Of a DNA stretch of 64,000 nucleotides, positions 4,709-15,897 are shown piece after piece. Source of the stretch: Lysobacter arenosi (GTDB taxonomy: Bacteria > Pseudomonadota > Gammaproteobacteria > Xanthomonadales > Xanthomonadaceae); the NCBI RefSeq assembly GCF_016613475.2, contig NZ_CP071517.1, positions 3,777,001 through 3,841,000 on the forward strand, written 5' to 3'. The position numbers and the translations under genes were made by a program. Under the pieces are notes generated by a model. It made no database searches, had not been told where the DNA came from, and saw nothing but the letters and a program-made list of their open reading frames with translations. Positions within the stretch are counted from its first letter, which is position 1, and every line of letters begins with the position of its first letter.

Positions 4709-5332
4709 TCAGAACTTCATGACGTACGCCGCGCCATACACGATCGGATCGATCGCGACGGTGCCCAGCCTGGCGCCGTTGAGTGCCACGTCGCTGTCGA
4801 TGTCGATCCAGCGCGCATCGATGCGGATCGCGCCGCGCTGCCCGACCGCGAAGTCGACGCCGGCATGCGCCGCCAGGCCCCAGGAGTCGTCGAGCTTGAG
4901 CTTGCTGCCGGCCAGCGCGCCGGTGGTGTCCTCGCTGAAGAACGCGGTGTAGTTGATGCCCGCGCCCACGAACGGCGAGATCCGTCCCTGGCCGTTGAAG
5001 TGGTACTGCAGCGAGACCGTCGGCGGAAGTTGCTTGGTGCTGCCGACGCGGCCCAGGCCGGCGATTTTGATGTCGTGCTCGAACGGCCAGGCCGCGAGCA
5101 CTTCCACGCCGAGGTTGTCGCGCACGAAGTACTCGAAGGTCAGGCTTGGCTTGATGTCGCGGTCGACGTCGACGGCGAGGGTTCCGCCGGCCAGACGGCC
5201 GTTGTTGGACTTGGGGTCGACGGCGTGGACGCCGACGCCCAGGGTCCAGTCGCCGGCCGTCTGGGCCAGGGCGGGCAGGGCGGCGGTGCCCAGGACCAGC
5301 GCGGCGGCGCAGGAGAGGAGCGGCTTTTGCAT
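4709..5332 (-). CDS. ompW: OmpW family outer-membrane beta-barrel protein
   Basis: A 207-residue outer-membrane protein with a signal peptide (MQKPLLS to ALPALAQ) followed by an eight-strand barrel typical of OmpW: GDWTLGVGVHAVDP near the mature start, a central FVGAGINYT strand, and a C-terminal aromatic YVMKF. OmpW proteins form narrow hydrophobic channels and often respond to oxygen and stress. The start at 5332 begins the signal peptide; upstream in-frame codons do not fit. A perfect FNR-type palindrome at 5390–5403 lies about 60 bases upstream, suggesting oxygen control as in Escherichia coli. It is divergent from gap. Confidence 0.92.
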   Translation of the reverse strand: MQKPLLSCAAALVLGTAALPALAQTAGDWTLGVGVHAVDPKSNNGRLAGGTLAVDVDRDIKPSLTFEYFVRDNLGVEVLAAWPFEHDIKIAGLGRVGSTKQLPPTVSLQYHFNGQGRISPFVGAGINYTAFFSEDTTGALAGSKLKLDDSWGLAAHAGVDFAVGQRGAIRIDARWIDIDSDVALNGARLGTVAIDPIVYGAAYVMKF

Positions 5333-5388
5333 GGTTGAGGAGCCTCGTTGTGGGAGGTCTCCAGTGTCTGCAGGGGGCTGCGGGCGCG

Positions 5389-5404
5389 CTTGATTCGGAT
5401 CAAG
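5389..5404. promoter_or_regulatory. FNR/Anr-type box upstream of ompW
   Basis: CTTGAT-TCGG-ATCAAG is a perfect inverted repeat containing the full FNR consensus TTGAT-N4-ATCAA. Its centre lies about 64 bases before the ompW ATG and about 147 before the gap ATG. The match to consensus is seen directly; binding by an FNR-family regulator is inferred. Confidence 0.7.
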
Positions 5405-5486
5405 TCCCCGTGGCCGGAGCCTAAATCGGCGTGACCCTTTCATCCCGGCCCCGCCGACGGGTCTGTTGGAATGGGCAGCCTGTTAG

Positions 5487-6548
<1,062 letters not shown>

Positions 6549-6571
6549 GGCGCGCCTTTACCGCATTACAG

Positions 6572-6604
6572 ACAAGGCCGGCATTTTGCCGGCCTTGTTT
6601 TTTT
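6572..6604 (+). terminator. Intrinsic terminator of gap
   Basis: An 11-base-pair stem (ACAAGGCCGGC with GCCGGCCTTGT) closes a five-base loop and is followed by an unbroken T run, 23 bases after the gap stop. This is a textbook Rho-independent terminator. Confidence 0.95.
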
Positions 6605-6649
6605 GGGGTTACCTTGATTTCCAGGCCAAAAACCCCCAGTTGAAGAGCC

Positions 6650-7060
6650 ATGAGCCAAACCCCACCGCTCGACGAGCAACAGCTGGCAACTCTCGTGGAC
6701 CGCTTCTACGAGCAGGTCCGCGTGCACCCGGAACTCGGCCCCGTCTTCAACGCCGCCATCGACGACTGGCCCGAACACAAACGCCTGCTGACGTCGTTCT
6801 GGTCGTCGGTCCTGCTGGGCACGCGCAGCTATCGCGGCCAGCCGATGGCCGCGCACCGGCCACACCCGATCCGCCCCGAGCATTTCGACCAGTGGCTGGC
6901 GCTATGGCAGAAGACCGCGGACTCGTTGCTGGCACCGGAACATGCAGCGCTGGCCCGCGAACACGCCGAGAAAATTGGCTACAGCCTGCGTTACGGCCTT
7001 GGCCTGCAGGAGCGCAAGGGCGCCCTGCCGCTCGGCGTGCCGATCGCTGGCAACGCCTGA
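6650..7060 (+). CDS. Group III truncated haemoglobin
   Basis: A 136-residue protein with the 2-on-2 globin pattern of group III truncated haemoglobins: LVDRFYEQVRVHPELGPVF in the B/C region, FWSSVLLGTRSY in helix E, and a His in HPIRPEHFDQWL consistent with the proximal region. These small cytoplasmic haem proteins bind oxygen or nitric oxide; group III members are often found near respiratory genes, but their role is poorly defined. The gene is separated from gap by a terminator and converges with the membrane glycosyltransferase gene 9 bases away. A nitrosative-stress role alongside the nap genes elsewhere in the window is only a guess. Confidence 0.85.
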   Translation: MSQTPPLDEQQLATLVDRFYEQVRVHPELGPVFNAAIDDWPEHKRLLTSFWSSVLLGTRSYRGQPMAAHRPHPIRPEHFDQWLALWQKTADSLLAPEHAALAREHAEKIGYSLRYGLGLQERKGALPLGVPIAGNA

Positions 7061-8709: not shown

Positions 8710-10986
8710 TCAGGAGGCCGCCAGCCCCAGGCGCAGTTCGCGCGTGGCCTGGACCATCGCGCTCAGCGCCTTGCGCACCTCCGGCCAGCCGCGCGTCTTC
8801 AGGCCGCAGTCCGGGTTGACCCACAGTTGCGCCGCCGGAATCACCTGCAACGCCTTGCCCAGCAGTTCGCCGATCTCCGTGGGCGACGGCACGCGCGGGG
8901 CGTGGATGTCATACACGCCCGGCCCGATGCCGTTGGGATAGCGGAACCTTGCGAAGGCATCGAGCAGCTCCATCCGTGAGCGCGAGGTCTCGATCGAGAT
9001 CACGTCGGCATCGAGCGCGGCGACCGCGTCGATGATGTCGTTGAACTCGGCGTAGCACATGTGGGTATGGATCTGGGTGGTGTCCGCCACCGCGCCGGCG
9101 GCGAGGCCGAATGCTTCCACTGCCCATGCCAGGTACCGCGGCCAGTCCTCGCGCCGCAACGGCAGGCCTTCGCGCAGCGCCGGTTCGTCGATCTGGATGA
9201 TGGCGATGCCGGCCGCTTCCAGCTCGAGCACTTCGTCGCGCAAGGCCAGGGCGATCTGCCGGCAGGTGTCTGCGCGCGGCTGGTCGTCGCGCACGAACGA
9301 CCACTGCAGGATGGTGACCGGTCCGGTCAGCATGCCCTTCACCGGATACTGCGTGCGCGACTGTGCGTAGCGGGTCCACTCCACGGTCATCGCGCGCGGC
9401 CGGCTTACGTCGCCGTAAAGCACCGGCGGTTTTACGCAGCGCGAGCCGTAGCTTTGCACCCAGCCGTGCGAGGTGAAGGCGAAACCGTCGAGCTGCTCGC
9501 CGAAGTACTCGACCATGTCGTTGCGTTCGAACTCGCCATGCACCAGCACATCCAGGCCGATCGCCTCCTGCTCGCGCAGGCAGTTGTCGATCTCGCGCTC
9601 GAGGAACATGCGGTAGCCGGCGTCATCGAGCTTGCCGGCCTTGTGGTCGGCGCGTGCCTTGCGCACCAGCGACAGCTGCGGGAATGAACCGATCGTGGTG
9701 GTGGGCAGTGGCGGCAACGCGAGGCGCTCGTGCTGCAGTCGCGCGCGCTGCGGGTAGGGCGTGGTGCGCTGGCTCATTGCTGGCAGCAGGCCGGCCAATC
9801 GCGCGCGTACCGTGGCGTTGCCCAGTTCCGGCGCATTGCGATGTGCAGTGCGCGCTGCCTGTGCGCTGGCAACTGCTGCCGCGGCGGCGGCATCGCCGGC
9901 GTGGGCATCGGCGAGCAGTCGCAACTCCTCCAGCTTCTGGCGGGCGAACGCCATGCCGCCACGCAGGGGCTGTGGCAGCTTGCGCTCGAGTTCCAGGTCG
10001 ATCGGCACGTGCAGCAGGGAACACGACGGTGCCAGCCAACGCACGCGCGACCCGGCGGTGTGCACAAGCGCCAGTGCCGCATCGAGGTCGGTGCGCCAGA
10101 CATTGCGTCCATCGACAACGCCAAGACTCAGCGATTGCTCGGCCGGCCACGCTTCAAGCACTCGCGAGAGCTGCTGCGGCGCTCGAGCCAAGTCGATGTG
10201 CAACGCGTCCACCGGCAGCGCGGCCACCAGTTCCAGGTTGTCGCCGAGATCGCCGAAGTAGGTCGCAAGCAGGATCTGCGGGATGTCTGCGGCAGCCAGT
10301 GCGGCGAATGCGCGGCGGTAGGCGTCGCGGTCGGCGTCGCCCAGGTCGAGTACCAGGCACGGTTCGTCGATCTGCACCCACGACGCACCCTCGGCCTTCC
10401 ACTGCTCAAGCAGGTGCACATACGCCGGCAGCAGCGCATCGAGCAGTTCGAGCGGGCAGCCGCCGTCTTCCCGTTTGCCGAGCTTGAGGAACGACACTGG
10501 CCCGAGCAGCACGGGGCGCGCCTCCAGCCCGAGCGCACGGGCTTCACGCAGTTCGGCCAGCGGCTTGTCGCCGCGAAGCCGGAACGTCTGGTCGACCTGG
10601 AACTTCGGCACGAGGTAGTGGTAGTTGCTGTCGAACCACTTGGTCATCTCCAGCGCGTGCAGGTCGTGCTGGTCGTCCTGCAGGCCACGGGCAAGGGCGA
10701 AGTAGCCCGCCAGCGGATCTGGCTCGAACACGTCGCGGTGCGAGGGCGGGATGGCGTCGAACAGGACCGCTGTGTCGAGCACGTGGTCGTACAGGGAGAA
10801 GTCGTTGCACGGAACGACATCGACGCCGGCATTGCGTGCCAGCTGCCAGTGCCGGGCACGCAGTTCGCGTGCGGTTGCGTGAAGGTCGGTCGATGTCGTC
10901 TGGCCTTTCCAGAACGATTCGAGGGCCTGCTTGAGCTCGCGTCGCGCGCCGATGCGCGGGAAGCCGAGATGGGTTACCTGGATCAT
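8710..10986 (-). CDS. metE: Cobalamin-independent methionine synthase
   Basis: A 758-residue cytosolic enzyme that transfers the methyl group of 5-methyltetrahydropteroyltriglutamate to homocysteine, using zinc and no B12. The N-terminal half begins THLGFPRIGARREL; the catalytic half begins LPTTTIGSFPQ. Zinc ligands are in HTHMCYAEFNDI (His and Cys) and VNPDCGLKTRGW (Cys). Length is standard. I set the start at 10986 because the frame upstream encodes riboswitch RNA, not protein. A cobalamin riboswitch in the 5' leader (11155–11350) should lower expression when B12 is plentiful. metF and ahcY near the window end belong to the same cycle. Confidence 0.98.
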   Translation of the reverse strand: MIQVTHLGFPRIGARRELKQALESFWKGQTTSTDLHATARELRARHWQLARNAGVDVVPCNDFSLYDHVLDTAVLFDAIPPSHRDVFEPDPLAGYFALARGLQDDQHDLHALEMTKWFDSNYHYLVPKFQVDQTFRLRGDKPLAELREARALGLEARPVLLGPVSFLKLGKREDGGCPLELLDALLPAYVHLLEQWKAEGASWVQIDEPCLVLDLGDADRDAYRRAFAALAAADIPQILLATYFGDLGDNLELVAALPVDALHIDLARAPQQLSRVLEAWPAEQSLSLGVVDGRNVWRTDLDAALALVHTAGSRVRWLAPSCSLLHVPIDLELERKLPQPLRGGMAFARQKLEELRLLADAHAGDAAAAAAVASAQAARTAHRNAPELGNATVRARLAGLLPAMSQRTTPYPQRARLQHERLALPPLPTTTIGSFPQLSLVRKARADHKAGKLDDAGYRMFLEREIDNCLREQEAIGLDVLVHGEFERNDMVEYFGEQLDGFAFTSHGWVQSYGSRCVKPPVLYGDVSRPRAMTVEWTRYAQSRTQYPVKGMLTGPVTILQWSFVRDDQPRADTCRQIALALRDEVLELEAAGIAIIQIDEPALREGLPLRREDWPRYLAWAVEAFGLAAGAVADTTQIHTHMCYAEFNDIIDAVAALDADVISIETSRSRMELLDAFARFRYPNGIGPGVYDIHAPRVPSPTEIGELLGKALQVIPAAQLWVNPDCGLKTRGWPEVRKALSAMVQATRELRLGLAAS

Positions 10987-11072
10987 GGTGATGTACCTGC
11001 GATGCGTTATGCATGACGCAGGGCAACGAAGGAGGGCACGGCCACGCACCGACGCCGCGAACGGCGCCGGAA

Positions 11073-11083
11073 GGAGACCTGCC
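11073..11083 (-). promoter_or_regulatory. Anti-B12-box segment in metE leader
   Basis: Read on the transcript this segment is GGCAGGTCTCC. It can pair with 10 of 11 bases of GAAGACCTGCC in the riboswitch B12 box 90–100 bases upstream. It lies between aptamer and start codon, where an expression platform is expected. The complementarity is seen; a switching role is inferred. Confidence 0.45.
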
Positions 11084-11154
11084 TTCGACCTTCGCCCCCG
11101 CGGGCGAACCGGCCGCGCGGCGTGAGCCGTGCGGTCGGGGGTCGGACGGAGGGC

Positions 11155-11350
11155 GGACCCTCCGGTCGGGGCAGGTCTTCGGGCTCGTGGGCGCGGGGAC
11201 ACGAGGTCCCCATCTACTGGCCACCGCTTCCCGGACAACGCCCAGTGCATGGATGGCGGTCGTTCCCATATACCGCTGCGGGGCAGCTCCGGAATTGGAC
11301 GGGTGTCCGTACCGGATTCCCTCTGGCGCCGCCGGTCACCCGGCGGTACT
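11155..11350 (-). ncRNA. Cobalamin riboswitch of metE
   Basis: On the minus strand the leader carries, in order, the conserved parts of an adenosylcobalamin-class aptamer: AGAGGGAATCCGGT, then GCTGCCCCGCAGCGGTA, then GCACTGGGC with a GGGAAG tail, and the 3' B12 box GAGCCCGAAGACCTGCC at 11170–11186. The element ends about 170 bases before the metE start. Boundaries are approximate. High cobalamin is expected to switch metE off, as for other B12-independent isozymes. Confidence 0.92.
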
Positions 11351-11398
11351 TGTCACATCGCTCCATCTTTATGAAGCGATGATCACCACGACGGCGCT

Positions 11399-11427
11399 AC
11401 GTTAGCCCCGCGGGCAGGGGGCGTCAA
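11399..11427 (-). promoter_or_regulatory. Probable sigma-70 promoter of metE leader
   Basis: On the minus strand TTGACG (11422–11427) and TAACGT (11399–11404) are separated by exactly 17 bases, upstream of the riboswitch. The -35 hexamer overlaps the stop codon of the upstream thioesterase gene. Predicted transcript start is near 11392, giving a leader of about 406 nt. A small hairpin (arms 11356–11362 and 11375–11381) lies between promoter and aptamer. Confidence 0.55.
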
Positions 11428-11831
11428 TCGCCCGATGGCGCCAGCGCGGGAACCGGCGTCGGCTGGCCGTGCATGTCGAGCGCGACCATGGTGAAGCGGC
11501 CGCGCGTGGCCAGCTGCGTGTCGCCGGTCATCAGGTCCTCGCGGTGCATGTCGACTTCCACCTGCAGCGAGCTGCGGCCGGTGGCGACCACGCGCGCGAC
11601 CAGTTCCACCAGCGCGCCCTTGGGCACGGCGACGTGGAAGTCGATCTGTTCCGAGCGCGCGGTGACCACGGTGCTGCGCGCATAGCGCGAGGCGGCGACG
11701 AAGGCGGCCTTGTCCATCCATGCCAGTGCCTGGCCGCCGAATAGCGTGCCGAGGTGGTTGGTGTGGTCGGGGAAGACTATCTCCGTCATGCGCGCTTCGG
11801 TGGGAGGCGACGCCGCTTCAGAACGCGGCAT
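11424..11831 (-). CDS. Acyl-CoA thioesterase, hotdog fold (YciA/BFIT type)
   Basis: A 135-residue hotdog-fold protein of the acyl-CoA hydrolase family: MTEIVFPDHTNHLGTLFGG holds the conserved N/H-GTLFGG loop, followed by ALAWMDKAAFVAA with the catalytic Asp. It should cleave acyl-CoA to free acid and CoA in the cytoplasm; chain-length preference is unknown. The start at 11831 is supported by GAGG nine bases upstream and overlaps the end of nrdB by 14 bases; a second ATG at 11789 sits directly before the family motif and is possible. The metE promoter appears to overlap its stop codon. Confidence 0.88.
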   Translation of the reverse strand: MPRSEAASPPTEARMTEIVFPDHTNHLGTLFGGQALAWMDKAAFVAASRYARSTVVTARSEQIDFHVAVPKGALVELVARVVATGRSSLQVEVDMHREDLMTGDTQLATRGRFTMVALDMHGQPTPVPALAPSGD

Positions 11832-12831
11832 CGAAGGCGACCTCGCCCTGCACGCCGACCTGGTAGGCCGAGACGCGACGCTCGAAGAAGTTGGTGACTT
11901 CCTGCACGTCCTGCAGGTCCATGAACGCGAACGGGTTGGTCGCGCCGAAATGGCGCGGCATGCCCAGCTGCGCCAGGCGCTGGTCGGCGCAGTACTGCAG
12001 GTACTGGCGCATGTCCTTCGGCGAGAGGCCGGCAACGCCGCCCGACAGCACGTCCTGGGCGAACTGCATTTCGCACTCCACCGCTTCCTCCAGCATCTGC
12101 ACGACCTGGCGCTGCAGTTCGTCGTCGAACAGTTCCGGCTGCTCGCTGCGCGCGGTGCGGATCACTTCGAAGGCGAAGGCCATGTGGCAGCTCTCGTCGC
12201 GGAACACCCAGTTGGTGCCCGACGCCAGGCCGTGCAGCAGGCCGCGCGAACGCAGGTAGTAGACGTAGGCGAAGGCGGCGAAGAAGAACAGGCCCTCGAT
12301 GCAGCAGGCGAAGCAGATCAGGTTGAGCAGGAACTGGCGGCGCTGTTCGGTCGTTTCGATGCGGCGGATGTCCTGGATCGAATCGATCCACTTGAAGCAG
12401 AACTCGGCCTTGGCGCGGATCGAAGGAATGTTCTGCACCGCATCGAACGCTTTCGCGCGTGCGACCGGGTCGGGCAGGTAGGTGTCGAGCAGGGTCAGGT
12501 AGAACTGCACGTGCAGCGCTTCCTCGTACAGCTGCCGCGACAGGTACATGCGCGCCTCGGGCGCGTTGATGTGCTGGTACAGGTTCAGCACCAGGTTGTT
12601 GGCGACGATGCTGTCGCCGGTGGCGAAGAAGGCCACCAGTCGCTCGATCAGATGCCGCTCGGCCGGCCCCAGCTTGTGCTTGAGGTCGTTGACGTCGAGC
12701 GAGAAGTCGACCTCCTCGACGGTCCAGGTGTTGCGGATCGCGTCGCGGTACATCTCGTAGAACTGCGGATAGCGCATCGGCCGCAGGGTGAGGTCGAAGC
12801 CGGGGTCGAGCAGGCGCATGTCGGTGGTCAT
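11818..12831 (-). CDS. nrdB: Ribonucleotide reductase class I, beta subunit
   Basis: A 337-residue protein that houses the diiron/tyrosyl-radical cofactor of aerobic class I ribonucleotide reductase. Metal-ligand motifs are visible: the acidic VEEVDF region, EALHVQFY (Glu and His) and RDESCHMAFAFE (Glu and His). The start at 12831 follows AAGGA at close spacing; two upstream ATGs in the same frame (12882, 12846) lie in repeat DNA. nrdA lies 118 bases upstream, with palindromic repeats between, and transcription likely continues from the B12-controlled nrdA promoter. The C-terminus should carry the peptide that docks on NrdA. Confidence 0.95.
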   Translation of the reverse strand: MTTDMRLLDPGFDLTLRPMRYPQFYEMYRDAIRNTWTVEEVDFSLDVNDLKHKLGPAERHLIERLVAFFATGDSIVANNLVLNLYQHINAPEARMYLSRQLYEEALHVQFYLTLLDTYLPDPVARAKAFDAVQNIPSIRAKAEFCFKWIDSIQDIRRIETTEQRRQFLLNLICFACCIEGLFFFAAFAYVYYLRSRGLLHGLASGTNWVFRDESCHMAFAFEVIRTARSEQPELFDDELQRQVVQMLEEAVECEMQFAQDVLSGGVAGLSPKDMRQYLQYCADQRLAQLGMPRHFGATNPFAFMDLQDVQEVTNFFERRVSAYQVGVQGEVAFDAAF

Positions 12832-12949
12832 GGAAATCCTTTGCATGGAATCCCTCTCCGCTGGCGGGAGAGGGTGGCGCATGGCGCCGGGAGAGGGGGA
12901 CGCTGTTGTTCTTCCTGGGGGGAGGGCGCGTCCCCTCTCCCTGGCGCAA
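12832..12949. repeat. Palindromic repeats between nrdA and nrdB
   Basis: The 118-base gap is built from inverted repeats of the form CCTCTCC...GGGAGAGG: one arm pair about 12847–12871, a second GGGAGAGGGG half at about 12888–12899, and the opposite arm CCCCTCTCCC at about 12932–12941. This resembles the CCCTCTCCCGC-type repeats common between xanthomonad genes. It may attenuate or stabilise the nrdAB message. Confidence 0.6.
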
Positions 12950-15433
12950 CTACTGGCAGGCCTCGCAGCTTTCCGGGTTCTCGAGCGAGCACGCCACGGC
13001 TTCCACCGCGCTGTACTCCGGCTTGGCCGCTTCGGCGACGCCGCTGACGGTGGCCTTGGCGATCTTCGTCGCCGGACGCGAGCGCAGGTAGTAAGTGGTC
13101 TTCAGCCCCTTCTTCCACGCGTACATGTACATCGACGACAGCTGGCCGATGTTCGGGCTCTCGATGAACAGGTTCAGCGACTGGCTCTGGTCGATGAAGG
13201 CGCCGCGGTCGGCGGCCATGTCGATCAGCGAGCGCATCGGCAGTTCCCACGCGGTGCGATAGACCGCGCGCAGCGACTCGGGAATCTGCGTGATGCCCTG
13301 GATCGAGCCTTCGGCCATCTTGATGCGGTCGCGCAGTTCCGGCGTCCACAGGCCCAGCGTCTTGAGTTCTTCGGCGAGGTAGCGGTTGACCACGAGGAAG
13401 TCGCCCGACAGCGTCTCGCGCTTGAACAGGTTCGACACCTGCGGCTCGATGCACTCGTAGCAGCCGGCGATGGAGGCGATGGTCGCCGTCGGCGCGATCG
13501 CGATCAGCAGCGAGTTGCGCAGGCCGTGCTCGGCGATGCGGGCACGCAGGCTGTCCCAGCCGTGGGCGTCGGACGGCGTCACGCCCCAGGCTTCGAACTG
13601 CAGCTCGCCCTGCGAGGCGCGCGTGTCGGCGAAGGACGGATGGCGGCCGCGTTCCATCGCCAGCTCGTTGGAAGCCGACAGTGCATGGAAGTACACCGCC
13701 TCGGCGATCTGCTTCGACAGTGCGCGCGCCTGGTCGGAGTCGAACGGCATGCGCAGTTTGAAGAACACGTCCTGCAGGCCCATCACGCCCAGGCCGACCG
13801 GGCGCCACTTGAGGTTGGCGCGGCGGGCGGTCTCGATCGGGTAGAAGTTCAGGTCGATCACGCGGTCGAGCTGGCGCACGGCCAGGCGCACGGTCTCGGC
13901 GAGCTTCTCGAAGTCGAAGCGACCGTCCTCACCGTGCACCGGACCCTCGGCGAACAGCTCGACGTGGTGGGAGAGGTTGATCGAGCCCAGGTTGCACACC
14001 GCGGTCTCGTCCTGTGAGGTGACTTCCAGGATCTCCGTGCACAGGTTCGACAGGTGCACCACGTTGCCTTCGCGCAGGGTCTGGTTGCAGGCGCGGTTGG
14101 ACTTGTCCTTGAAGTTCATCCAGCCGTTGCCGGTCTGCGCCAGCGTGCGCACCATGCGGCTGTACAGCTCGCGTGCCTTGACGGTGCGCGCCGCAAGGCC
14201 GGCCACTTCGGCGGCGTGGTAGGCGCGGTCGAAGGCCTCGCCCCACAGGTCGGTCAGCTGCGGCACCCTGGCCGGGTCGAACAGCGACCAGTCGCCGTCG
14301 GCCTCGACCCGGCGCATGAACTCGTCGGGAATCCAGTTGGCCAGGTTGAGGTTGTGCGTGCGCCGCGCCTCGTCACCGGTGTTGTCGCGCAGTTCCAGGA
14401 ACTCCTCAACGTCGGCGTGCCACGGCTCCAGGTACACGCAGGCCGCGCCCTTGCGCTTGCCGCCCTGATTGACCGCGGCGACCGAGGCGTCGAGTGTCTT
14501 CAGCCACGGCACGATGCCGTTGCTCAGGCCGTTGGTCGAGCGGATCAGCGAGCCGCGCGAACGGATGCGGGTGTAGCTCAGGCCGATGCCACCGCTGAAC
14601 TTGCTCAGCTTGGCCACGTCCATGTAGCGCTTGTAGATGCTTTCCAGCGAGTCTTCCGGCGAGTCGAGCAGGAAGCAGCTCGACAGCTGCTCGTGCGTGG
14701 TGCCGGAATTGAACAGCGTCGGCGAGCTGGGGATGTAATCCAGCTGCGCCATGCGCCGGTACAGCGCCAGCGCGTCGCTGACATCCTCGCTCAGTGCGCA
14801 GGCGATGCGCAGGAAGAACTGCTGCGGCGTCTCGATCACCGTGCGCGCGGTCGGGTGGCGCAGCAGGTAGCGGTCGTAGAGCGTGCGCAGGCCGAAGTAG
14901 TCGAAGCGCTGGTTGAGGCTCGGGTCGATCGCGTCGTTGAGCTTGCGCGCGTTGGCCTGGACGAAGGTCAGCAGGCGCTCGTTGATCAGGCCTAGGTCGA
15001 AGCCGCGCTGCACCGACTGCGAGAACGCGTGGATCTCGATGCCGGCGACTTCCTTCTCGATCACGCCGGCGAGCAGGCGCGCGGCGAGGCGGCCGTATTC
15101 GGGTTCTTCGGCAGTGAGCAGGGCGGCGGTGCGGATCGACAGTTCGTCGAGCTCGCGCGTGGTCGCGCCGTCATACAGGCCGGAGATGGTGCGCGTGGCA
15201 ACGCGCATCGGATCTACGGAGAACAGGCCTTCGCAGTTGCGCGTCACCGCGCGCACGATCTTGTTGAGGTCGACCGGGTCGCGGCGGCCGTTGCGCTTGG
15301 TCACCGTCATTGTGAGGTTGGCGGCCGGCGGGGTCAGGGTGAAGCCGGCGGGGGCGGTCTGTTCCGAGCCGGCCTGCGCGGACGTGGCGGCGGCAGGCTT
15401 GCTCACGGCAGGCGCGTTGGTGGTGGTGGTCAT
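12950..15433 (-). CDS. nrdA: Ribonucleotide reductase class I, alpha subunit
   Basis: An 827-residue catalytic subunit that reduces ribonucleoside diphosphates to deoxy forms. An ATP-cone domain (VTKRNGRRDPVDLNKIVRAV, about residues 44–63) precedes the ten-stranded barrel; active-site motifs include SSCFLLD, NLCTEI and PTATIASIAGCYE. The C-terminus is SCEACQ, giving the CxxC pair that thioredoxin or glutaredoxin reduces. The start at 15433 was chosen because upstream in-frame codons lie in the riboswitch leader. Expression is predicted to fall when cobalamin is available, implying a B12-dependent class II reductase elsewhere. Confidence 0.97.
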   Translation of the reverse strand: MTTTTNAPAVSKPAAATSAQAGSEQTAPAGFTLTPPAANLTMTVTKRNGRRDPVDLNKIVRAVTRNCEGLFSVDPMRVATRTISGLYDGATTRELDELSIRTAALLTAEEPEYGRLAARLLAGVIEKEVAGIEIHAFSQSVQRGFDLGLINERLLTFVQANARKLNDAIDPSLNQRFDYFGLRTLYDRYLLRHPTARTVIETPQQFFLRIACALSEDVSDALALYRRMAQLDYIPSSPTLFNSGTTHEQLSSCFLLDSPEDSLESIYKRYMDVAKLSKFSGGIGLSYTRIRSRGSLIRSTNGLSNGIVPWLKTLDASVAAVNQGGKRKGAACVYLEPWHADVEEFLELRDNTGDEARRTHNLNLANWIPDEFMRRVEADGDWSLFDPARVPQLTDLWGEAFDRAYHAAEVAGLAARTVKARELYSRMVRTLAQTGNGWMNFKDKSNRACNQTLREGNVVHLSNLCTEILEVTSQDETAVCNLGSINLSHHVELFAEGPVHGEDGRFDFEKLAETVRLAVRQLDRVIDLNFYPIETARRANLKWRPVGLGVMGLQDVFFKLRMPFDSDQARALSKQIAEAVYFHALSASNELAMERGRHPSFADTRASQGELQFEAWGVTPSDAHGWDSLRARIAEHGLRNSLLIAIAPTATIASIAGCYECIEPQVSNLFKRETLSGDFLVVNRYLAEELKTLGLWTPELRDRIKMAEGSIQGITQIPESLRAVYRTAWELPMRSLIDMAADRGAFIDQSQSLNLFIESPNIGQLSSMYMYAWKKGLKTTYYLRSRPATKIAKATVSGVAEAAKPEYSAVEAVACSLENPESCEACQ

Positions 15434-15599
15434 GGCGGTAGCTCCGGTGCGTGGGCGCACGGCTCGTTGTCCTTCCCTCGAAGGGCAACGTGGCGCGGGT
15501 TCCGAAGCGTGCGGTTGCGGCGTCGCGCAGGCCGAGACGGACCTGTGGTGGCGGGCGCGTTCCTCGAGAGAAAACGGGCGCCACCCTGCGACACCGACC

Positions 15600-15616
15600 G
15601 TCTTCCCTCCGAAGAC
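15600..15616 (-). promoter_or_regulatory. Competing hairpin in nrdA leader
   Basis: The plus-strand sequence GTCTTC-CCTCC-GAAGAC forms a local hairpin. Its CCGAAGAC part (15609–15616) becomes GTCTTCGG in the transcript, which also pairs perfectly over eight bases with CCGAAGAC inside the riboswitch B12 box (15663–15670). The two pairings exclude each other, as expected of an expression platform. Confidence 0.4.
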
Positions 15617-15649
15617 TCGCTGGCCGGTCACCGCGCGGTGTGCAACGCG

Positions 15650-15862
15650 CGGCTGTCGGCAGGTCTTCGGGCTCTGGACGCGAGGACCGGGCGCATGCCG
15701 CTGGTGCCTCACCTAATGACCGTCGCTTCCCAGGCCCATGCCCAGTGCCATGACGGCGTTCGTTTCCACTACCGCTGCGGGGCAGCGCCGGAGTTGGCCG
15801 CTCGCTGTGAGCGTGGCCGCACCGGACTTCCCTTTTAAGCCGACCGCGAGGTCGGCACCGAC
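15650..15862 (-). ncRNA. Cobalamin riboswitch of nrdAB
   Basis: The minus strand shows GGTGCC near the predicted transcript start, AAAAGGGAAGTCCGGTG, GCTGCCCCGCAGCGGTA, GGCACTGGGC, GGCCTGGGAAG, and the B12 box GAGCCCGAAGACCTGCC at 15658–15674. The B12 box is identical to that of the metE riboswitch 4.5 kb away. The aptamer ends about 215 bases before the nrdA start. Boundaries are approximate. Confidence 0.93.
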
Positions 15863-15868
15863 GGCCAC

Positions 15869-15897
15869 AACATAGTGGGGGTTGGATGATCCGTCAA
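15869..15897 (-). promoter_or_regulatory. Probable sigma-70 promoter of nrdAB
   Basis: On the minus strand TTGACG (15892–15897) and TATGTT (15869–15874) are spaced by exactly 17 bases. The predicted start, near 15862, coincides with the 5' edge of the cobalamin aptamer, giving a leader of about 430 nt. The -35 hexamer and spacing match those of the metE promoter. Confidence 0.6.

Follow-up and report, generated by a model that had tools for sequence, protein, structure and literature searches.

The window analysed here is a stretch of 64,000 nucleotides from Lysobacter arenosi (C1:3777001-3841000 of a one-contig genome of 3.95 Mb). Its minus strand carries, in order, a cobalamin riboswitch aptamer, nrdA, nrdB, a thioesterase gene, a second cobalamin aptamer, and metE. 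The genes specify two enzymes that work without vitamin B12: class I ribonucleotide reductase and the B12-independent methionine synthase. The central features are these:

15641-15877, minus strand: aptamer of the nrdA leader (RF00174, 95.3 bits, E 1.8e-22, full model, positions 1-189)
15774-15786, minus strand: P5/L5 hairpin of the nrdA aptamer, GCTG-CCCCG-CAGC
15658-15674, minus strand: B12 box of the nrdA leader, 17 bases, GAGCCCGAAGACCTGCC
12950-15433, minus strand: nrdA, class I reductase alpha subunit (TIGR02506, 717 bits, cut-off 341; the NrdJ model scores below its own cut-off)
11818-12882, minus strand: nrdB, class I reductase beta subunit (NF005550, 280 bits, under the cut-off of 309; the top matches are beta subunits, all below their cut-offs)
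about 11424-11789, minus strand: 4HBT thioesterase gene (PF03061, E 4.2e-19; start codon chosen by eye)
11171-11349, minus strand: aptamer of the metE leader (RF00174, 74.3 bits, E 1.8e-16, model positions 20-171 only)
11275-11287, minus strand: P5/L5 hairpin of the metE aptamer, GCTG-CCCCG-CAGC
11170-11186, minus strand: B12 box of the metE leader, 17 bases, GAGCCCGAAGACCTGCC, identical to the nrdA box
8710-10986, minus strand: metE, B12-independent methionine synthase (TIGR01371, 1053 bits, cut-off 930)

The original prediction held that both minus-strand leaders are cobalamin riboswitches, and a covariance-model scan of the window agrees: both lie far above the RF00174 gathering score of 31.5 bits, and both contain a B12 box and an L5 loop of the CCCG type. 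Its further description of the locus is accurate too, save that its two transcription units are putative, the promoter scan having listed one 9-of-12 match before nrdA and nothing near the metE leader. The two boxes match at 17 of 17 bases; the aptamers lie 4528 bases apart, start to start (4.5 kb as predicted); each leader precedes the gene of a B12-independent isozyme, family models pointing to nrdA-nrdB-thioesterase and metE; and the PF03061 gene alone separates nrdAB from metE. Box identity by itself is no proof of duplication, because the same or nearly the same 17 bases recur in many relatives. The best named matches of the nrdA gene are from Lysobacter. Upstream of it, in the opposite orientation, lies a gene that matches phosphoglycerate kinase below the model cut-off.

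B12-dependent twins and a third riboswitch

Both B12-dependent counterparts foreseen for other parts of the genome are there. The class II reductase gene nrdJ (C1:2501921-2503831, a frame of 726 amino acids) scores 585 bits against a cut-off of 400. MetH is split between two adjacent open reading frames of 895 and 375 amino acids (C1:828881-832527), adjoined by a gene with ArsR-type and methyltransferase-type matches; in Xanthomonas, metH1, metH2 and samR stand side by side (PMC4239095). After nrdJ comes a separate gene of 261 amino acids, whose match is to the final part of a different class II reductase model (L011:3044-3829 and 4751-6931), an arrangement that suggests a two-gene class II enzyme.

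An RF00174 search of the whole genome returned three riboswitches. The third (C1:3591382-3591601) precedes a gene for a TonB-type B12 receptor of the btuB type (TIGR01779, 630 bits, cut-off 600), about 197 kb from the nrdA/metE pair. The proposal of a local B12-sparing regulon thus holds in that both isozyme pairs are present, and fails in that the regulon reaches beyond the locus.

The nrdA riboswitch and nrdJ across the family

The comparative sample comprised 149 genomes of the same family, the window's own included. Relatives of the window's metE (E<=1e-100) occur in 38 of the 149 and relatives of its nrdA, at the same threshold, in 100. A riboswitch was assigned to a gene if an RF00174 match lay at most 1.5 kb upstream on the same strand. 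By this rule metE is preceded by a riboswitch in 38 of 38 genomes, and nrdA in 91 of 100 among the matches listed, or 92 of 100 once G019 was checked directly (50.4 bits).

TIGR02504, applied at E<=1e-130, found nrdJ in 114 of the 149 genomes. Twenty of the 100 nrdA genomes gave no such match; re-searched with the NrdJ of the window's genome, together with two positive controls, ten of these proved to have nrdJ. The re-search included twelve apparent exceptions, genomes with an nrdA riboswitch yet no TIGR02504 match at that threshold. In seven, a single long open frame holds NrdJ in two parts (G020, G027, G031, G047, G059, G065 and G076), and in three more it lies in pieces: on two contigs in G080, at a contig edge in G066, and in two adjacent frames in G120.

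With nrdJ so counted, the nrdA riboswitch is present in 90 of the 90 genomes where nrdJ was found, and in 2 of the 10 where it was not. The remaining eight (G018, G044, G071, G077, G098, G104, G124 and G145; 90-100% complete) have neither nrdJ nor an nrdA riboswitch, and a permissive cmscan around their nrdA genes, reaching about 550 bases or more upstream in every case (L153 has the shortest stretch), found no upstream RF00174. They span three genera, g19, g30 and g45. Within g30, G029 has both nrdJ and the nrdA riboswitch, and G071, G098, G124 and G145 have neither. The association would arise with a chance of about 6e-12 if the genomes were independent; they are related, and a fair count is about three losses. 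In the sampled family, then, the nrdA riboswitch and nrdJ nearly always occur together, and the switch has been lost where this B12-dependent twin is missing (90/90 versus 0/8, two incomplete drafts standing against).

Some observations on the genes themselves arose along the way. In G065 (L165, C1:3256000-3261000), NrdJ carries an in-frame insert of about 1.1 kb, giving a frame of 1148 amino acids with a LAGLIDADG_3 domain; an intein-splicing match reaches 33.4 bits, just under the cut-off of 35.8. The insert probably represents an intein that carries a homing endonuclease. NrdJ of G020, G027, G031, G047, G059 and G076 is likewise interrupted by an insert, as judged from match geometry only. 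Further afield, similar nrdA genes (about 70-73% identity) with an upstream B12-box pattern occur in L064, L081, L086 and L090, which are Myxobacteria and metagenome-assembled genomes labelled as other phyla; no B12-box pattern lies upstream of nrdA in L087 or L088. This distribution hints at joint transfer of switch and nrdAB.

The nrdA leader

In published models, L5 (consensus UCCCG) pairs with L13, the loop of a downstream hairpin, P13, and so sets the later fold (PMC10653944). Downstream of the nrdA aptamer the relevant elements are as follows; a promoter candidate is listed with them:

15593-15628, minus strand: hairpin P13a, whose loop CGGAGGG is complementary to L5 apart from bulged bases
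15588-15595, minus strand: 5' strand of a long-range helix, GGTGTCGC, overlapping the foot of P13a
15519-15526, minus strand: 3' strand of the same helix, GCGACGCC
15471-15484, minus strand: P13b, a second L13-type hairpin near the start codon, CCTT-CGAGGG-AAGG
15869-15897, minus strand: sigma-70-like promoter TTGACG-17-TATGTT (9/12 consensus matches only; shuffles mean 0.0)

These elements were evaluated in an alignment of 32 nrdA leaders, chosen by hand. The P13a stem forms in 98.6% of cells and shows 16 double-change cells against 2.9 in shuffled alignments (0 of 500 as high). A P13-type hairpin whose L13 loop could pair with L5 lies in both leaders of the window, at 11091-11108 in metE, and covaries, as P13a, in nrdA. 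The helix GGTGTCGC/GCGACGCC is paired in 95.6% of cells, with 6 double-change cells versus 1.5 shuffled. Because the foot of P13a overlaps the GGTGTCGC strand, the two are a natural pair of alternatives. P13b is paired in 87.1% of cells (8 double-change cells versus 2.0 shuffled), and its loop is nearly invariant.

Several nrdA leaders (L012, L015-L017, L019-L022, L024, L027, L029 and L035) bear, between P13a and P13b, another hairpin with the loop CGCGGG (of the type GCGCC-CGCGGG-GGCGC), like the P13 hairpin of metE. Three other candidates were dropped: the segment AGACGG/CCGTCT as a helix, for want of excess covariation; a hairpin beside the Shine-Dalgarno sequence (GTGCG/CGCAC), which showed no double changes; and a leader reading frame, given up without a coding test because its stretch abounds in insertions and deletions.

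The metE leader

Four elements lie between the metE aptamer and its gene:

11089-11108, minus strand: P13-type hairpin TTCGCC-CGCGGG-GGCGAA, followed by GG, near-constant in metE leaders
11075-11084, minus strand: AGGCAGGTCT, in which 9 bases are complementary to the metE B12 box
11027-11032, minus strand: CCTTCG, complementary to the CGAAGG of the P13-type hairpin's 3' arm
10996-11022, minus strand: CCTGCG ... CGCAGG, a candidate hairpin at the Shine-Dalgarno sequence (p 0.4, not significant by itself)

The hairpin TTCGCC-CGNGGG-GGCGAA hardly changes among metE leaders. Together with the GG that comes next, its 3' arm is complementary to the downstream CCTTCG, and the arrangement GGCGAAGG ... 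CCTTCG recurs in 35 of 41 leaders. In many of them CCTTCG sits just before the strand that complements the Shine-Dalgarno sequence (TTCCTCA/TGAGGAA; in the window, CCTGCG/CGCAGG), so that the metE leader looks like the layout of a translational switch. The element AGGCAGGTCT is common to G129 and L105 and is not found in L106-L109. The promoter scan listed nothing near the metE leader; a TTGACG-17-TAACGT pair before the aptamer, which that scan did not list, was read by eye only.

A model for repression, and its rivals

The preferred reading, to which we give a probability of about 0.9, is that two repressing cobalamin riboswitches, ordinary in kind, control nrdAB and metE. When B12 is scarce, the leaders would permit expression of class I reductase and of MetE. 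On binding a corrinoid, the aptamer would pair its L5 with a downstream L13-type hairpin; this kissing loop would break the alternative helices, and expression would fall. In metE the last step would be concealment of the ribosome-binding site; for nrdA, the final step could lie in translation or in termination. The cell, supplied with B12, would then rely on NrdJ and MetH, the btuB-type gene carrying the same kind of switch.

Several observations weigh against this reading. The metE aptamer matches RF00174 without the outer closing stem, although the metE leader of a counterpart genome, G129, matches the whole model (1-189, 76.7 bits). Pairing of the Shine-Dalgarno sequence is significant (p<=0.05) in just 9 of 41 metE and 2 of 32 nrdA leaders, and sequestration was set aside as too weak for a general test. 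Two drafts, G007 (72% complete) and G024 (83% complete, 6% contaminated), keep the nrdA riboswitch where nrdJ was not found. L5 is CCCCG wherever it is clearly parsed (66 of 97 pattern matches read GCTGCCCCGCAG, the others being mis-parsed or mismatched), and because it is invariant there, covariation cannot test the kissing loop. Finally, many nrdA leaders of the Lysobacter group contain an exact complement of the B12 box 40-43 bases past the box.

That complement raises the question of whether the switch is of an older style, the B12 box pairing with a downstream anti-B12-box, rather than one of L5-L13 and P13. The box and its complement can pair in 93.4% of cells; at the ninth pair T-A and C-G exchange (TCCGAAGAC/GTCTTCGGA and CCCGAAGAC/GTCTTCGGG); and the metE leader has its 9-base complement. 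The pairing breaks, however, in L018, L020, L023, L026, L028 and others; in these, compensating changes keep the downstream strand paired inside P13a. The B12 box hardly varies, so its missing covariation says little either way. Box pairing is kept as a rival, an unlikely one, and ranked below P13a, which covaries where the box pairing fails in several loci.

A second rival concerns the final step: the riboswitches might act by transcription termination, intrinsic or Rho-dependent, instead of through the ribosome-binding site. Corrinoid riboswitches of the transcriptional kind are known (PMC10653944), the nrdA Shine-Dalgarno sequence shows little sign of being hidden (2/32), and the nrdA leader has a terminator-like stem with a T-rich tail (15595-15577). 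That stem, however, is one site against 0.4 in shuffles, in a stretch not conserved in the alignment, and the scan found no terminator in the metE leader (Rho sites being invisible to the scans used). Termination is possible for these leaders, and we incline somewhat against it.

Doubled L13-type hairpins

Counting hairpins with at least four pairs around a CG-N(0-2)-GGG loop reveals a recurrent doubling. Two or more such hairpins occur in 31 of the 32 aligned nrdA leaders (shuffles 5.1%), in 36 of 46 further nrdA leaders, mostly from other families (shuffles 2.7%), and in 31 of 41 metE leaders (shuffles 8.7%). The window's own metE leader has one by the same count. Among 21 third-riboswitch leaders, counted without shuffles, 17 have at least one and a single leader has two or more; the downstream gene of this set was checked by family search for G000 only. 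The further nrdA set omits 8 of the 55 loci L037-L091, which have no box pattern (some are cut off upstream), and L053, already counted among the aligned leaders; 14 of the 41 metE leaders likewise had no box pattern, and in these the count was made on the final 240 bases. One widening of the loop pattern followed the sight of the window's CGGAGGG loop (the narrower pattern gave 21/32 for nrdA and 28/41 for metE), and the leaders are related, so the counts are descriptive only.

A tentative proposal, which we hold with rather less than even confidence, is that a two-hairpin expression platform serves the nrdA and metE B12 riboswitches in Xanthomonadales and in some bacteria outside that order: two unrelated P13 stems would present the same L5-complementary CG-N-GGG loop, the first some 40 bases past the B12 box and the second nearer the start codon, with btuB-type leaders mostly having one. 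If so, the aptamer could dock with each hairpin in turn, making two decision points during transcription; alternatively, the pair could make one tighter switch for enzymes that should not be made at the wrong time. The CG-N-GGG loops may also have a partner other than L5. A literature search, to which most subscription journals were closed, listed no paper describing a doubled P13.

Linkage of metE and nrdAB

Twenty-five genomes of the family have both metE and nrdA, on different contigs in eight and on one contig in 17. In 15 of the 17 (15/25 overall) metE lies within 10 kb of nrdA, a raw proportion; in the other two the genes are more than 100 kb apart. The 15 close pairs show four arrangements: six tandem with metE after nrdAB, seven convergent, one divergent, and one tandem with metE first. 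In several convergent cases metE directly follows the thioesterase gene but is inverted.

This closeness could be meaningless for regulation, each gene having its own switch and the neighbourhood being inherited or due to chance. Each gene does have its own riboswitch in 13 of the close pairs (all but G145 and G018), and eight further genomes have the two genes on different contigs and two have them more than 100 kb apart. Against this stand the frequency of close pairs in four relative arrangements and L083, where nrdA, nrdB and metE lie on one strand behind a single riboswitch, before nrdA, with the nrdB and metE matches 22 bases apart. Disagreement between the MetE and NrdA trees, in which G048, G101 and G115 are placed differently, is also not explained by one inherited cluster. 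The notion of meaningless closeness is plausible enough to keep, and on the whole doubtful.

In the MetE tree the tandem cases of g1 and g16 group together, with the non-adjacent G101. Both trees were made with FastTree on chosen genomes, and several nodes are weakly supported; repeated gain or movement of metE beside nrdAB nonetheless seems likelier than one inherited cluster. Elsewhere, two cobalamin riboswitches lie 113 bases apart on opposite strands (L071:7159-7761), driving nrdA and metE in opposite directions. L062 has the gene order of L083, but its sequence begins inside the leader. (L017 and G015 are apparently one genome.)

In genus g1, nrdA has an upstream riboswitch in 12 of 12 genomes, and metE (E<=1e-60) occurs in two, each time directly after the thioesterase gene. 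The other ten (all but G000 and G129) have no metE of the window's type yet retain nrdA behind its riboswitch, and so may need B12 to make methionine.

Relation to known systems

In Streptomyces, whose genome also has a class II reductase, the class Ia operon nrdABS is reportedly under a B12 riboswitch. It differs from the Lysobacter case in phylum and is not known to have metE adjoining.

Compared with the corrinoid riboswitch of RF00174, the leaders here have the same aptamer core, B12 box, L5 and P13-type hairpin, and precede metE, the reductase genes and a gene of the btuB type; they differ in that most nrdA and metE leaders examined have two L13-type hairpins, and the published models one (PMC10653944). 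NrdDG has been found behind B12-elements where NrdJ exists, and the same mode was described earlier for reductase and methionine synthase isozymes (PMC545781). The isozyme principle, a B12-independent enzyme behind a B12 riboswitch with its B12-dependent twin in the genome, is already in print. That case (PMC545781) concerns the class III enzyme NrdDG in delta-proteobacteria; here class I nrdAB lies beside metE in a Lysobacter-like genome.

In Priestia megaterium, metE is repressed by corrinoids, as is proposed here, and MetH is the B12-dependent twin (PMC9600662, PMC10653944). That switch is transcriptional and in tandem with a SAM riboswitch, whereas an RNA-family scan found no SAM riboswitch in the window, and the metE leader looks translational. 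Xanthomonadales metE is described as mainly under MetR, and the phrase 'B12 riboswitch' is absent from the main text of that source (PMC4239095). A literature search by title and start of abstract found no paper on metE and nrdAB riboswitches in Xanthomonadales.

Implications

As a pair, the riboswitches follow a rule already known. The doubling of L13-type hairpins points to a specific revision of the usual one-hairpin model, one open to testing, and the recurrent closeness of metE and nrdAB suggests that B12-independent genes move together or that selection favours their proximity. The chief value of the locus lies in the natural experiment formed by the nrdA switch and nrdJ, which lends good comparative support to the view that switches of this kind persist only in genomes with a B12-dependent twin enzyme.

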